From: Dokdonella sp.
Lineage (GTDB): Bacteria; Pseudomonadota; Gammaproteobacteria; Xanthomonadales; Rhodanobacteraceae
Direction: 5' to 3'
DNA: 40,579 bases
NCBI GenBank assembly: GCA_023228465.1
Contig: JALOBC010000026.1
Coordinates: forward strand, 1 to 40,579
The notes beneath the pieces are model-generated. The model made no database searches, was not told the origin of the DNA, and saw only the letters and a list, made by a program, of their open reading frames with translations. Below are positions 1-27,086 of this stretch, piece after piece. Each line of letters starts with the position of its first letter. Within the stretch, counting starts at the first letter, position 1. Position numbers and translations under genes: made by a program.

Positions 1-302
1 CCTCCGCCCCTCCGGGGCCGCGCCGCTTCGCGTCGCGTTCCGATCCGCTCCCGGCGGATCGGTCGAACCGGCATTCCATTGCGGTGGTTCTCATCCACCT
101 CGCGCAATGCCTTGCCACGTGCTGCTGTTGGAGGGAGGTGGACTACTCCGGGCTTCCTGCCCTCCGCCCCTCCGGGGCCGCGCCGCTTCGCGTCGCGTTC
201 CGATCCGCTCCCGGCGGATCGGTCGAACCGGCATTCCATTGCGGTGGTTCTCATCCACCTCGCGCAATGCCTTGCCACGTGCTGCTGGTGGAGGGAGGTG
301 GA
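1..302 (-). repeat. 160-bp tandem repeat carrying tRNA-Tyr 3' ends and GGA-loop hairpins
   Basis: Bases 1-142 match 161-302 at a period of exactly 160 with one difference (128 T versus 288 G). The array continues past the left edge of the window. Read on the minus strand, each unit begins with the last part of tRNA-Tyr (T-stem 3' half plus acceptor, TCCACCTCCCTCC). A roughly 60-base spacer with an imperfect hairpin follows, then the motif GGTTCGACC. Next come three clean hairpins: CGATCCGC/GCGGATCG with loop CGGGA (201-221, 41-61), GCCCC/GGGGC with loop GGA (166-178, 6-18), and GGGC/GCCC with loop AGGAA (150-162). The array lies directly 3' of the intact tRNA-Tyr gene and would be co-transcribed with it. 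The arrangement recalls the E. coli tyrT operon, where longer repeats also begin with the tRNA-Tyr 3' end; homology to those repeats is not claimed. Confidence 0.9.
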
Positions 303-4000: not shown

Positions 4001-4975
4001 TCAATCGACGTAGAGCGAACTCACCGATTCGCCATGGGCGATGCGGCGAATGGTTTCCGCGAGCAGGTCCGCCACGGAAAGCTGGCGGATCTTGTCGCAG
4101 GCTGCGGCGGCGGGCGACAGCGGGATCGTGTCGGTCACCACCAGCTCATCCAGCGCGGAACCGTTGATGTTCTGGATGGCCGGTCCGGACAGGACCGGAT
4201 GGGTACAGTAGGCCGCCACCCGGCGCGCGCCGTTGCGCTTGAGCGCTGCCGCTGCCGCGCACAGGGTGCCGGCCGTATCGACGATGTCATCGACCAGTAC
4301 GCAGACCTTGTCCTTGACCTCGCCGATGATGTTCATCACCGTCGCCTCGTTCGGGCGCGGGCGGCGCTTGTCGATGATGGCCAGGTCCGCATCGTCCAGG
4401 CGCTTGGCGATCGCACGTGCGCGCACCACCCCGCCCACGTCCGGCGAAACGACGATCAGGTTGTCCTTGCCGTGCATGCGCCAGATGTCGGCCAGCAGGA
4501 CCGGCGAGGAGTACACATTGTCCAGCGGAATGTCGAAGAAGCCCTGGATCTGGTCGGCGTGCAGGTCCACCGTCAGCACGCGATCGGTACCGACCACGCC
4601 AATCATCTCTGCAGCCACCCGCGCCGTGATCGGCACCCGCGCCGAACGCGGCCGGCGATCCTGCCGCGCATAGCCGAAATACGGCATCACGGCCGTGACG
4701 CTGGCCGCCGAGGCGCGCTTGAGCGCATCGATCAGCGCCAGCATCTCCATGAAATTGTCCGCCGTGGGCGCACAGGTCGGCTGGATCACGAACACCTCCT
4801 GGCGGCGCACGTTCTCCTCGATCTCCACCTGCACCTCGCCATCGCTGAAGCGGCCCACCAGGGCCTTGCCGAGCGGCAGGTTGAGCTTCTCGCAGATGGC
4901 CGTGGCGAGCGGGCGATTGGCATTCCCGGTGAACACCAGCATGCCGGCGTTGTTCATGGTGGTCTCGACGCTCAT
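4001..4975 (-). CDS. prs: Ribose-phosphate pyrophosphokinase (PRPP synthetase)
   Basis: The enzyme makes PRPP from ribose 5-phosphate and ATP, feeding nucleotide, His and Trp synthesis. Key motifs are [12 protein letters not shown] (41-52), YARQDRR (102-108), [11 protein letters not shown] (137-147) and the PRPP loop DDIVDTAGT (229-237). At 324 residues it carries a slightly longer N-terminus than E. coli Prs; M7 or M12 are possible alternative starts. It is directly downstream of tRNA-Gln and upstream of rplY on the same strand, so the tRNA may be cut from a shared transcript. Confidence 0.98.
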
Positions 4976-5094
4976 GCTCTGTCACCTGGTCCGGTTGCGC
5001 CGGTCTGGCGCCTGCCACGTCATGCCTGCCGACTGGCGGTCTGCGAACCAGGCGGGCCATCGCGGCGCGCTGTGCCCGGCAGGTTCGCTTCGTT

Positions 5095-5169
5095 TGGCTG
5101 GGGCGGCAGGATTCGAACCTGCGAATGCCGGGATCAAAACCCGGTGCCTTACCGCTTGGCGACGCCCCA
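5095..5169 (-). tRNA. tRNA-Gln (anticodon TTG)
   Basis: The minus strand gives acceptor strands TGGGGCG and CGCCCCA, with the U1-A72 pair typical of bacterial tRNA-Gln. The anticodon stem CCGGG/CCCGG encloses TTTTGAT, giving anticodon TTG. The T-arm is GCAGG-TTCGAAT-CCTGC. A discriminator G and encoded CCA (complement of 5095-5097) complete it. The gene lies between ispE and prs, as it does in related genomes. Immediately 5' of it is a two-copy hairpin repeat. Confidence 0.97.
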
Positions 5170-5175
5170 TCTGGA

Positions 5176-5421
5176 GCAGTCCGGGCATCCTGCCCAGCCT
5201 GCATGGAAAGGGCCGCGGCAAGGCCGCGCCACCTTTCCCACGCCGCGATGCTTCCGCATCGCGCGGGCGGTGCGTCCTGCACCGCTCAAAACCGCGCAGT
5301 CCGGGCATCCTGCCCAGCCTGCATGCACACATCCATTGGAGCCGGGCCGCGGCAAAGCCGCGCCACCTTTCCCACGCCGCGATGCTTCCGCATCGCGCGG
5401 GCGGTGCGTCCTGCACCGCCC
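5176..5421 (-). repeat. Two-copy hairpin repeat upstream of tRNA-Gln, six GGA-loop hairpins
   Basis: Two direct copies (5176-5285 and 5296-5421) fill the gap between ispE and tRNA-Gln. The second has a short extra segment near 5325-5345. Read on the minus strand, each copy holds GCGGTGC-AGGAC-GCACCGC (5267-5285; 5399-5421, where the stem is 9 bp), then CGCGATGC-GGAA-GCATCGCG (5244-5263; 5378-5397). A stretch reading GGGAAAGG and a CTT- or TTT-loop GC hairpin follow, and GGGCA-GGA-TGCCC (5183-5195; 5303-5315) ends the copy. The last hairpin and the flanking CCGGA(C/G)T are shared with the elements at the tRNA-Tyr locus. There is no T-run, and a terminator here would separate tRNA-Gln and prs from ispE, so a structured RNA leader is more likely. 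Confidence 0.88.
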
Positions 5422-5432
5422 GGCTACCAGCC

Positions 5433-6302
5433 TCAGGCCCCGACCCTCGCGCGCAGGCGCTCGAGCAGGGGCGATTCATCTACACCGCGGGCCACGAACG
5501 CGCGCATGCCCGGCGGGGACTGCGCAGCGATCGCCTCGGCCGGCGCGCGCGAATCGAACCCTGCAAATACGCAGCCGCCCGATCCTGACAGCCGTGCCCT
5601 TCCAAAGGCGCCCAGCCAGTCGAGCGCCGCAGCGACCTCGGAATGGCGCGCCCGCGCAACCGGTTCGAACACGTTGCGCATGCTGCCGCCGGAAACAAAG
5701 AGCGGAATTGTCATCTGCGGCACATCGCGTGTCAATTCCGGCGCGGCAAACAGGTCGGCGGTCGCCACGCGCGCACCCGGGTCGATCACCACGAACCAGG
5801 CCGGCGCCAGGGCCAGCGGGGTCAGGCACTCGCCCACGCCTTCGGCCCAGGCACTGTGCCCGCGCACGAACACCGGCACGTCGGCGCCAAGCTGCAGGCC
5901 CAGCGCAGCCAGCTCATCCTCGCTGGCGCCTGCCTGCCACAACACGTTGAGTGCACGCAGCACCGTGGCGGCATCGGAACTGCCACCGCCCAGGCCCCCT
6001 TGCGGTATGCGCTTGCTGACCGCGATATCCACCCCGGCCGGACAGGCGGCAGCGGCCTGCAGGGCGTGCGCGGCGCGCACGGCGAGATCATCCGCGGCGG
6101 CCACGCCCGGCAGGCTGCCGTGGCGCACGATGCGACCATCTTCGCGCAGGCGCAGGTGGACGGTATCGCCGAAATCGAGCAGCTGATACACGGTCTGCAG
6201 CAGGTGGTAGCCGTCCGCGCGGCGACCCGTGACATGCAGGAACAGGTTCAGCTTGGCCGGAGCCGGCCACTCGCTCCAGCCATCTGCGCCCGTACTGTTC
6301 AT
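5433..6302 (-). CDS. ispE: 4-diphosphocytidyl-2-C-methyl-D-erythritol kinase
   Basis: IspE phosphorylates CDP-methylerythritol in the MEP isoprenoid pathway; dxr and uppS, also in this window, serve the same pathway and its product. The 289-residue protein belongs to the GHMP kinase family, with PAPAKLNLFLHVTGRRADGYH-type residues at 13-33 (K17, N19). The ATP-binding glycine loop is at 100-112. That loop reads P-Q-G-G-L-G-G-G-S-S-D, one residue shorter between Pro and Leu than the P-x-G-x-G-(L/I) form I know for the family. The frame is intact around it. The start codon overlaps the lolB stop (ATGA), which fixes the start and suggests translational coupling. Confidence 0.96.
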   Translation of the reverse strand: MNSTGADGWSEWPAPAKLNLFLHVTGRRADGYHLLQTVYQLLDFGDTVHLRLREDGRIVRHGSLPGVAAADDLAVRAAHALQAAAACPAGVDIAVSKRIPQGGLGGGSSDAATVLRALNVLWQAGASEDELAALGLQLGADVPVFVRGHSAWAEGVGECLTPLALAPAWFVVIDPGARVATADLFAAPELTRDVPQMTIPLFVSGGSMRNVFEPVARARHSEVAAALDWLGAFGRARLSGSGGCVFAGFDSRAPAEAIAAQSPPGMRAFVARGVDESPLLERLRARVGA

Positions 6303-6913
6303 GGCATGTCCCAGGCCCGGATGGCCAGTCGCACGCTGTAGGAATCCCTGCTCGCATACACGCGCCGCGGCAGGGCCGGCGCATGGCCCTGGGCGTAATC
6401 CCGATACTCGATATGCCAGCCGCCCTGGTCGATGGTTGCCGGCAGACCGTCGGCGCGGAAGGTGATCGCGGCCGGCCCCGGCGCGCGCATGCCGCGCACC
6501 CAGTCGGAAAGTTCCGCAAGGGGCACGTGCCAGCCCAGCTCGCGCTCGAGCAGCCAGGCCGCATCCGGGCCCTCCACGGTTCCCCCGGGCAGGCCTTCCA
6601 GGCGCGCGTGCGACGCATCGCCCGCCAGCACCCAGGTCTTGCCGGTCACCGGCGCATGCACCGTGAAGCGGAATGTCGCGCCGCTCTGGCGCCACGCCAG
6701 CGAGCCACTGCCACTCTCGCGGCCGTCGGAAACCGCCAGGCGCGCTTCCAGCTGCCAGGAGGCATCCTTGCTGCGCAACGCCGCTTCACGGGCGTCCTGG
6801 GCGGCCAGCAGGGACGCTGTGGGCAGCACCGGCTTCACGCGCGGGCCCGCGCAGGCGGCCAGCAGCAGCGCCGCCAGTCCGGCCGCGATGGCGCGCAGAC
6901 CGGCACCGTTCAT
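6299..6913 (-). CDS. lolB: Outer-membrane lipoprotein insertion factor LolB
   Basis: LolB accepts lipoproteins from LolA and inserts them into the inner leaflet of the outer membrane. The start at 6913 gives 204 residues with a lipoprotein signal ending LLLAAC, so C21 becomes the lipidated residue. The mature part contains WQLEARLAVSDGRESGSGSLAWRQ-like sequence, typical of the LolB half-barrel, and W-rich segments farther on. It overlaps by four bases (ATGA) both with the upstream TPR gene and with the downstream ispE, so the three probably form one translation-coupled unit. The family is poorly conserved, but the lolB-ispE pairing supports the name. Confidence 0.92.
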   Translation of the reverse strand: MNGAGLRAIAAGLAALLLAACAGPRVKPVLPTASLLAAQDAREAALRSKDASWQLEARLAVSDGRESGSGSLAWRQSGATFRFTVHAPVTGKTWVLAGDASHARLEGLPGGTVEGPDAAWLLERELGWHVPLAELSDWVRGMRAPGPAAITFRADGLPATIDQGGWHIEYRDYAQGHAPALPRRVYASRDSYSVRLAIRAWDMP

Positions 6914-26815: not shown

Positions 26816-27086
26816 GTTTCGTCCACCCGGTTGCGCGGTCGCCCGCCACAGGCAGATAGGCCTCATGGCGGGTCGCTTCAAGGCCGGCGGCGAAACAGAC
26901 GGCCATGTCGGCCGAATCCGCACACGCATCGTCACCGCGTTCGGGGTGCCTCGCAAGGGGTCGTCCGCGGCGGATGCGTGGAGGCCCAACCCCGGAGTTG
27001 CACGCACGTCCGCCCCGCCCCACGCCTCCCCGCGTGGCCGCATGCAGGTGACGGGCCGCAACTCCTCCCGCGAAGGAATACCTGCA
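26816..27086 (+). promoter_or_regulatory. Long structured leader of rpsB, possible S2 autoregulation site
   Basis: The leader contains an 8-bp perfect long-range pair, GGAGTTGC (26994-27001) with GCAACTCC (27058-27065), ending 21 bases before the rpsB start. It encloses a 6-bp hairpin CCACGC/GCGTGG (27020-27037). In gammaproteobacteria ribosomal protein S2 represses its own rpsB-tsf message through a leader structure of this general kind. Equivalence is inferred from position, not from a match to a known RNA model. Confidence 0.4.

Follow-up and report, generated by a model that had tools for sequence, protein, structure and literature searches.

The repeat that lies between ispE and a tRNA-Gln gene of Dokdonella sp. 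is a member of a dispersed family of elements with four hairpins (H1 to H4), which has spread by MITE-like movement. We propose, with a probability of about one half, that this family encodes a four-hairpin RNA and disperses RsmA/CsrA-type sites. The repeat was found in a stretch of 40,579 nucleotides (the window), and its relatives were collected with R1, a covariance model made from an alignment of eight copies and seeded by matches to the window repeat; the tRNA-proximal window copy is itself one of the eight seed sequences. The features of the locus are the following:

6299–6913, minus strand: lolB-like gene (name presumed from synteny)
5433–6302, minus strand: ispE, upstream of the repeat on the same strand (name from the initial annotation; used as protein query)
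5707–5735, minus strand: promoter-like site TTGACA-17-GACAAT within ispE, with nucleotide-level conservation in congeners
5300–5432, minus strand: tRNA-distal copy of the four-hairpin element (R1 match 5297–5420, 46.4 bits)
5403–5417, minus strand: H1 of the distal copy, identical to the proximal H1
5176–5299, minus strand: tRNA-proximal copy of the four-hairpin element (R1 match 5177–5286, 89.6 bits)
5269–5283, minus strand: H1 of the proximal copy, GGTGC-AGGAC-GCACC, CsrA-like loop
5244–5263, minus strand: H2 of the proximal copy, CGCGATGC-GGAA-GCATCGCG; GGA not conserved in the element family
5201–5243, minus strand: H3 of the proximal copy, long stem closed by CGCGGC-CTT-GCCGCG; the element family keeps the stem sequence, with a free loop
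5181–5197, minus strand: H4 of the proximal copy, CTGGGCA-GGA-TGCCCGG, CsrA-like loop
5095–5169, minus strand: tRNA-Gln with anticodon TTG; the proximal R1 match lies 7 nt upstream
4001–4975, minus strand: gene that we take to be prs-like

The repeat at the ispE–tRNA-Gln locus

Along the minus strand, the lolB-like gene is followed by ispE, two tandem copies of the repeat (5176–5432), tRNA-Gln and the prs-like gene, in agreement with the place between ispE and tRNA-Gln that the initial annotation had given to the repeat. The distal R1 match starts 13 nt past the end of ispE. The two copies are in direct orientation and identical at 103 of 120 aligned positions, with 14 gap positions; they look like a local duplication and are thus not two independent observations.

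Six GGA-loop hairpins had been announced for this repeat. Folded singly, each copy indeed exposes three such loops, AGGAC (H1), GGAA (H2) and GGA (H4, here GGGCA-GGA-TGCCC), with H3 as a long GC stem, but folding the whole 257-nt stretch yields four GGA hairpin loops (H1 and H2 twice, with stems of at least 4 bp). In this joint minimum free energy structure the H4 arms of one copy pair with those of the other, so that six simultaneous GGA loops represent one of several possible folds; this pairing weighs against the reading proposed above. The stretch GGGAAAGG, which had been described as single-stranded, pairs with CCTTTCC within H3 in the tRNA-proximal copy. The cluster of GGA-loop hairpins is rare in its own genome: four GGA loops were found in one and three in three of 3390 other 257-nt stretches (440 kb, both strands), and a genome-wide habit of forming such hairpins was rejected. 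Perfect hairpins of at least 8 bp numbered 161 in 440 kb; their loop contains GGA or TCC in 21 cases, three of them from the window repeat.

At the gathering score, Rfam 15 recognizes nothing in the window besides tRNA and t44 (t44 RNA, RF00127, at 26901–26990 on the plus strand, 61.6 bits), and no family matching the repeat was found. The best non-tRNA match to the repeat is RsmW (RF02809, CsrB clan), whose first hairpin, AGGACGC, aligns to H1 and whose later hairpins align poorly to the element. Its score of 28.8 bits, against a gathering score of 52 (E-value 0.0041 for a 366-nt stretch, 0.37 in a larger search), does not amount to a known CsrB/RsmY-like RNA at this place. TwoAYGGAY, considered as a known family, is absent from the weak Rfam matches, which is informative only if Rfam 15 holds this family. 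TwoAYGGAY is named in a table of PMC2864571.

Dispersal and conservation of the four-hairpin element

A DNA search of 16 genomes of the genus returned similar stretches both at ispE–tRNA-Gln and at unrelated places. R1 gave at least 55 matches in these genomes, 12 of which were positive, with at least 11 matches in the richest and at least 8 in the genome of the window; at ispE–tRNA-Gln itself, matches are present in five (the own genome, G001, G002, G004 and G011). In the taxonomic family, 58 of 197 genomes, from 8 of 26 genera, carry matches, whereas 139 gave none at stricter filters with 19 candidates scored per genome, which speaks against our proposal. Matches number at least 24 in G057 and, as the highest count, at least 27 in G040; these copy numbers are lower bounds, since 150 candidates were scored per genome (19 in the 197-genome search). 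The core of the element measures about 110 nt, or about 140 nt with its ends. No element was detected at nine ispE loci of named genomes, including one Lysobacteraceae MAG (best score 12.7 bits, E-value 0.98), and a single G057 copy (L177:1440–1640) used as query had no match in plasmids and phages. Two copies (L131 in G001 C6 and L133 in G002 C1) have tRNA-Leu on one side and a gene on the other, with csrA at a distance of about 1.8 kb in both genomes, and another (L135, G014 C212:38176–38293) sits close to tRNA-Gln, on its other side and on the opposite strand.

The structure of the element is firmly established. RNAalifold applied to the eight-copy seed alignment gave 41 pairs, 17 of which had changed on both sides. 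In 57 aligned copies, 37 of the 41 pairs had changed on both sides, compared with a mean of 25.9 in shuffled alignments (none of 500 shuffles was as high), and the structure was held in 87.8% of cells, against 72.5% for shuffled and 33–47% for slid versions; copies of the element are related, so these and the following counts are not independent.

Conserved loop motifs were recognized in two of the hairpins, CA(N)GGA(U/C)G in H1 and CAGGANG in H4. In two alignments, GGA is present in the loop of H1 in 42/57 and 87/92 copies, of H4 in 45/57 and 63/92, of H2 in 7/57 and 2/92 and of H3 in 0/57 and 0/92, counts that are biased towards the window repeat, given the seeding of R1. The CsrA-type reading of the three loops per copy can therefore be kept for H1 and H4, but not for the GGAA loop of H2. 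Alignment A5 combines 73 of the 76 R1 matches from the search covering G057 and G040 with 19 from the 197-genome search, leaving out three weak matches in G023 and G095 and the remaining matches of the latter search. The stems of H1 are exchanged under a constant GGA loop (GGCAC, GATCC, GGTGC, GACGC and GGTAC among them); in H1 and H4 the loop is thus more constant than the stem, whereas H3 shows the reverse, a constant stem sequence with a free loop. In most copies the H3 stem is built around ACGTGGCGCGGC/GCCGCGACCGT and contains an unpaired T and a G-A mismatch; no other sequence of the element is conserved as strongly, despite the free loop.

To reduce circularity, a loop-blind model, R2, was made from H2 and H3 alone; its seeds are the same eight copies and its 14 genomes were picked as R1-positive. 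R2 recovered at least 64 matches in these genomes. Minimum free energy folding placed a GGA loop at the H1 position in 51/61 copies, at the H4 position in 45/63 and at both in 36/60, compared with 49/479 and 29/239 (10–12%) in control stretches located 100–400 nt away. A strict finder of bulge-free hairpins recovered GGA at H1 in 48/61 copies and at H4 in 16/64 (control hairpins, 34/515), the low H4 count, which also weighs against our proposal, being due to a bulge in this hairpin; the string GGC[AG]GGANGC occurs in 49/64 R2 copies. Among 47 non-redundant copies, the strict finder recognized GGA in the H1 loop of just 28 and A(N)GGA in 21, which counts against our proposal.

Wobble pairs point in the same direction for the strand that carries GGA. 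In all copies, G-T outnumbers A-C in the stems (175:92 and 245:185, with A-C concentrated at few positions), and at well-paired positions of the 47 non-redundant copies the numbers are 73 and 29, although some preference for G-U over A-C is built into R1 and into the alignments fitted to this model, which weakens the argument. Neutral decay would give equal numbers, so that this excess points to a function as RNA. Judging from these sequence patterns, the RNA inside the element is under constraint.

The initial annotation had proposed a dedicated sponge RNA gene. CsrB/RsmB and RsmX/Y/Z are stand-alone, Gac-controlled sRNA genes, and the repeat consensus of CsrB is CAGGANG. These RNAs share GGA hairpin loops and CAGGANG heptamers with the element, and the several CsrA-like hairpins, a possible release from a pre-tRNA and the weak match to RsmW would fit a gene of this type. 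However, copies are dispersed beside unrelated genes, which led us to reject a single-locus sRNA gene; each copy has just two conserved GGA loops; the match to RsmW remains below the Rfam threshold; and, in contrast to the Gac-controlled genes, no promoter of its own was found for the element, no GacA box near the repeat (two chance-level matches lie elsewhere in the window) and no terminator-like site in 4950–6400. A dedicated CsrB/RsmXYZ-type gene is therefore not borne out and appears very unlikely.

Mobility and genomic context

Many copies of the element in G057 are sharp-ended, and some are near-identical. By eye, a hairpin with GAGCGGTTTGCAAAACC makes up their left end, and the imperfect inverse of this end, GGTTTTGCAAACTGATC, stands at the right, where it doubles as the outer stem of H4; the inverted ends read GAGCGGTTTGCAAAACC / GATCAGTTTGCAAAACC. 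Dispersed copies of the own genome have different ends, CAGGGTGTTGAAAA / CAGGATGCTGAAAA, flanking the same four hairpins (also by eye). In relatives, the same 5-bp word is present on both flanks in 16 of the 48 copies for which both ends were found, whereas 2000 shuffles gave a mean of 1.26 and a maximum of 6. Derivatives with internal deletions and solo ends are present as well. The inverted ends together with the 5-bp target duplications indicate that the element has spread like a MITE, a conclusion that we regard as firm for the family. The window copies display by eye neither ends nor a target duplication, and a limited search for an autonomous partner transposon or transposase (exact 13-mer, in G057 and G040) found none; both results stand against the proposed reading. 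Four 13-mer sites of these two genomes located away from the listed R1 matches are remnants of the element.

The QMITE1 and QMITE2 repeats of Coxiella burnetii (PMC5896051) are likewise small and non-autonomous, occur in tens of copies between or beside genes, and are MITEs that give rise to sRNAs, which makes them comparable to the element as a source of small RNA (putatively so for the element). They differ by direct repeats of 2–3 or 7–11 nt, instead of 5, and the abstract describing them contains no reference to CsrA or to paired binding sites (PMC5896051).

Gene context was determined with a home-made caller based on codon usage. In the genus, the orientations of the element relative to its flanking genes are ++33, --7, -+7 and +-5 (52 copies for which both neighbours were called, those at ispE–tRNA-Gln among them); the element thus tends towards the sense of its neighbours, and many copies stop 10–50 nt short of the next gene. 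In the wider family, orientations are about random (++26, --21, -+20 and +-14; 81 copies with both neighbours called), as expected for a plain mobile element and contrary to what would favour our proposal. The element may have a role in cis in the genus, its dispersal not being directed. Many randomly oriented copies with loops not kept as GGA had been named beforehand as evidence against a CsrA-binding RNA; the random orientation is indeed seen, but the loops are kept as GGA.

These observations bear on the alternative that the element is a plain MITE or REP-like repeat, whose hairpins are retained by kinship or by a role of the folded DNA in transposition, independently of RsmA. The target duplications, the defined ends, the near-random orientation, the near-identical G057 copies and the deleted and solo-end derivatives all agree with this explanation. 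Common descent alone, however, does not predict loops steadier than stems in H1 and H4 and the opposite in H3, nor does the explanation account for loops that fit A(N)GGA while N varies freely or for the excess of G-T over A-C on one strand. Moreover, inverted ends and 5-bp duplications suggest a DDE transposase, an enzyme that needs no inner hairpins. We consider a plain mobile repeat possible, though at clearly less than an even chance.

REP-like elements can stabilise upstream mRNA, and the hairpins could similarly protect or process the 3′ end of ispE or the 5′ side of pre-tRNA-Gln, with GGA being incidental, for instance a Shine-Dalgarno mimic. The many genus copies that end shortly ahead of the next gene would suit such an RNase barrier or spacer, as would five copies at tRNA-Gln ending 8–11 nt before the tRNA (coordinate difference). 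Yet in three congeners ispE is separated from tRNA-Gln by just 5, 9 or 48 nt, with no R1 match there, and the free N of ANGGA, which would break complementarity to the anti-Shine-Dalgarno sequence, argues against a simple mimic. This protective role seems unlikely to us.

A putative pre-tRNA leader and the CsrA/RsmA network

The promoter-like site within ispE, about 275 nt upstream, is the only one found for the repeat (0.1 expected from shuffles). Across 15 ispE genes (the own genome and 14 congeners), the -10 hexamer is conserved in 15/15 and the -35 hexamer in 14/15. The site is kept with or without the element, including in three genomes with a spacer of 5–48 nt between ispE and tRNA-Gln, and therefore probably serves tRNA-Gln. 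A conserved promoter that would carry the repeat into the leader of pre-tRNA-Gln makes release of this leader by RNase P plausible. Regulatory RNAs released from tRNA precursors are known among tRNA-spacer sponges, such as the 3′ETS of leuZ, which pairs with sRNAs; the element would instead be a 5′ leader with sites for a protein.

Other repeats are associated with tRNA genes. On the minus strand of window positions 1–300, a tandem repeat of about 160 bp overlaps the end of tRNA-Tyr (286–371) and reiterates, by eye, the 3′ end of this tRNA; it contains CCGATCCGC-CGGGA-GCGGATCGG hairpins with GGA in the loop as well as GGGCAGGAAGCCC, has no significant R1 match, and resembles the rtT-type repeats of tRNA ends. 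Elsewhere in the own genome (L065, C27:9500–11700), tandem units of about 180 bp follow tRNA-Ser; every unit contains the 3′ end of this tRNA (by eye), GGGAATG-hairpins whose loop is CGGGA, and GGCGC-AGGAC-GCGCC, and there is a match to Rfam sX4 below gathering (56.5 versus 70 bits).

The genome search for csrA recommended in the initial annotation found one gene, whose product contains VHREEI. R44 is important in CsrA (PMC4066749), its numbering on the VHREEI product being our own. Of 27 genomes, 23 yielded a csrA gene; the other four are incomplete or fragmented drafts, namely G013, G015 and G191 (77–90% complete) and G109 (94%, in 240 contigs). The primary CsrA site is A(N)GGA (PMC4066749); the loop bound by RsmE is ANGGAN, with A and GGA contacted (PMC7652899), a motif also employed in PMC3791407. 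Many H1 hairpins read CACA-NGGA-UGUG, compared with RUACARGGAUGU for the SELEX consensus (PMC7652899), and in the window copies the motif takes its shorter form, AGGA, which is included in the primary-site list of PMC4066749. The element thus presents paired A(N)GGA hairpin loops as in CsrA/RsmA-binding RNAs, in fewer copies by the strict finder, and two GGA sites per copy would suit a dimer. Two published observations stand against binding through these loops: the stems of H1 are long and GC-rich, whereas a very stable structure might be disadvantageous to CsrA according to a review (PMC7652899), and RsmU with all four of its GGA motifs changed was still bound by RsmA (PMC7694677). From its sequence, we rate binding of RsmA by the element RNA as about even.

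RsmU, a 3′-UTR-derived sRNA that sequesters RsmA in Xanthomonas campestris (PMC7694677), is comparable to the element as an RsmA-binding RNA (putatively so for the element) that comes from a transcribed region flanking a gene, outside the known sponge families. By its description RsmU is set apart: it is a single locus after comEA, in the 3′-UTR of this gene, with four predicted GGA motifs and more than 90% identity within Xanthomonas, to which it is reported to be specific, whereas our repeat lies at ispE–tRNA-Gln (PMC7694677). Neither the element itself nor any repeat carrying CsrA sites appeared among the matches listed in our literature search, and a term search of a MITE review (PMC10969869) gave no mention of CsrA, Xanthomonas or Stenotrophomonas.

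In the mechanism that we propose, H1 and H4 would offer A(N)GGA loops that an RsmA/CsrA dimer can hold, with H2 and H3 acting as spacers or scaffold. Transposition would have put the element beside many genes, and transcripts crossing it in sense would gain a pair of RsmA sites. In the window, transcription from the promoter in ispE would cover about 265 nt of this gene, then the doubled element and tRNA-Gln. Once the tRNA is matured at 5169/5170, a leader RNA would remain that bears up to four RsmA-type hairpins and whose putative physiological effect would be to titrate RsmA or to control RNA stability. This full version, a transposable element moving pairs of RsmA/CsrA sites whose window copies, captured by a tRNA promoter, form a standing RsmA sponge released from pre-tRNA-Gln, is tentative and on present evidence rather doubtful.

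The usual explanation of CsrA/RsmA networks invokes dedicated sponge RNAs and point changes close to ribosome binding sites. If our proposal is correct, a mobile element with RsmA-motif hairpins would be a direct route for writing genes into the CsrA/RsmA network, and a global post-transcriptional regulator would gain new targets and sponges by transposition. With known sponge RNAs as queries, no significant homologue was reported in any sequenced Xanthomonas genome (PMC7694677); the element described here could help to explain how RsmA is balanced in relatives of Xanthomonas.
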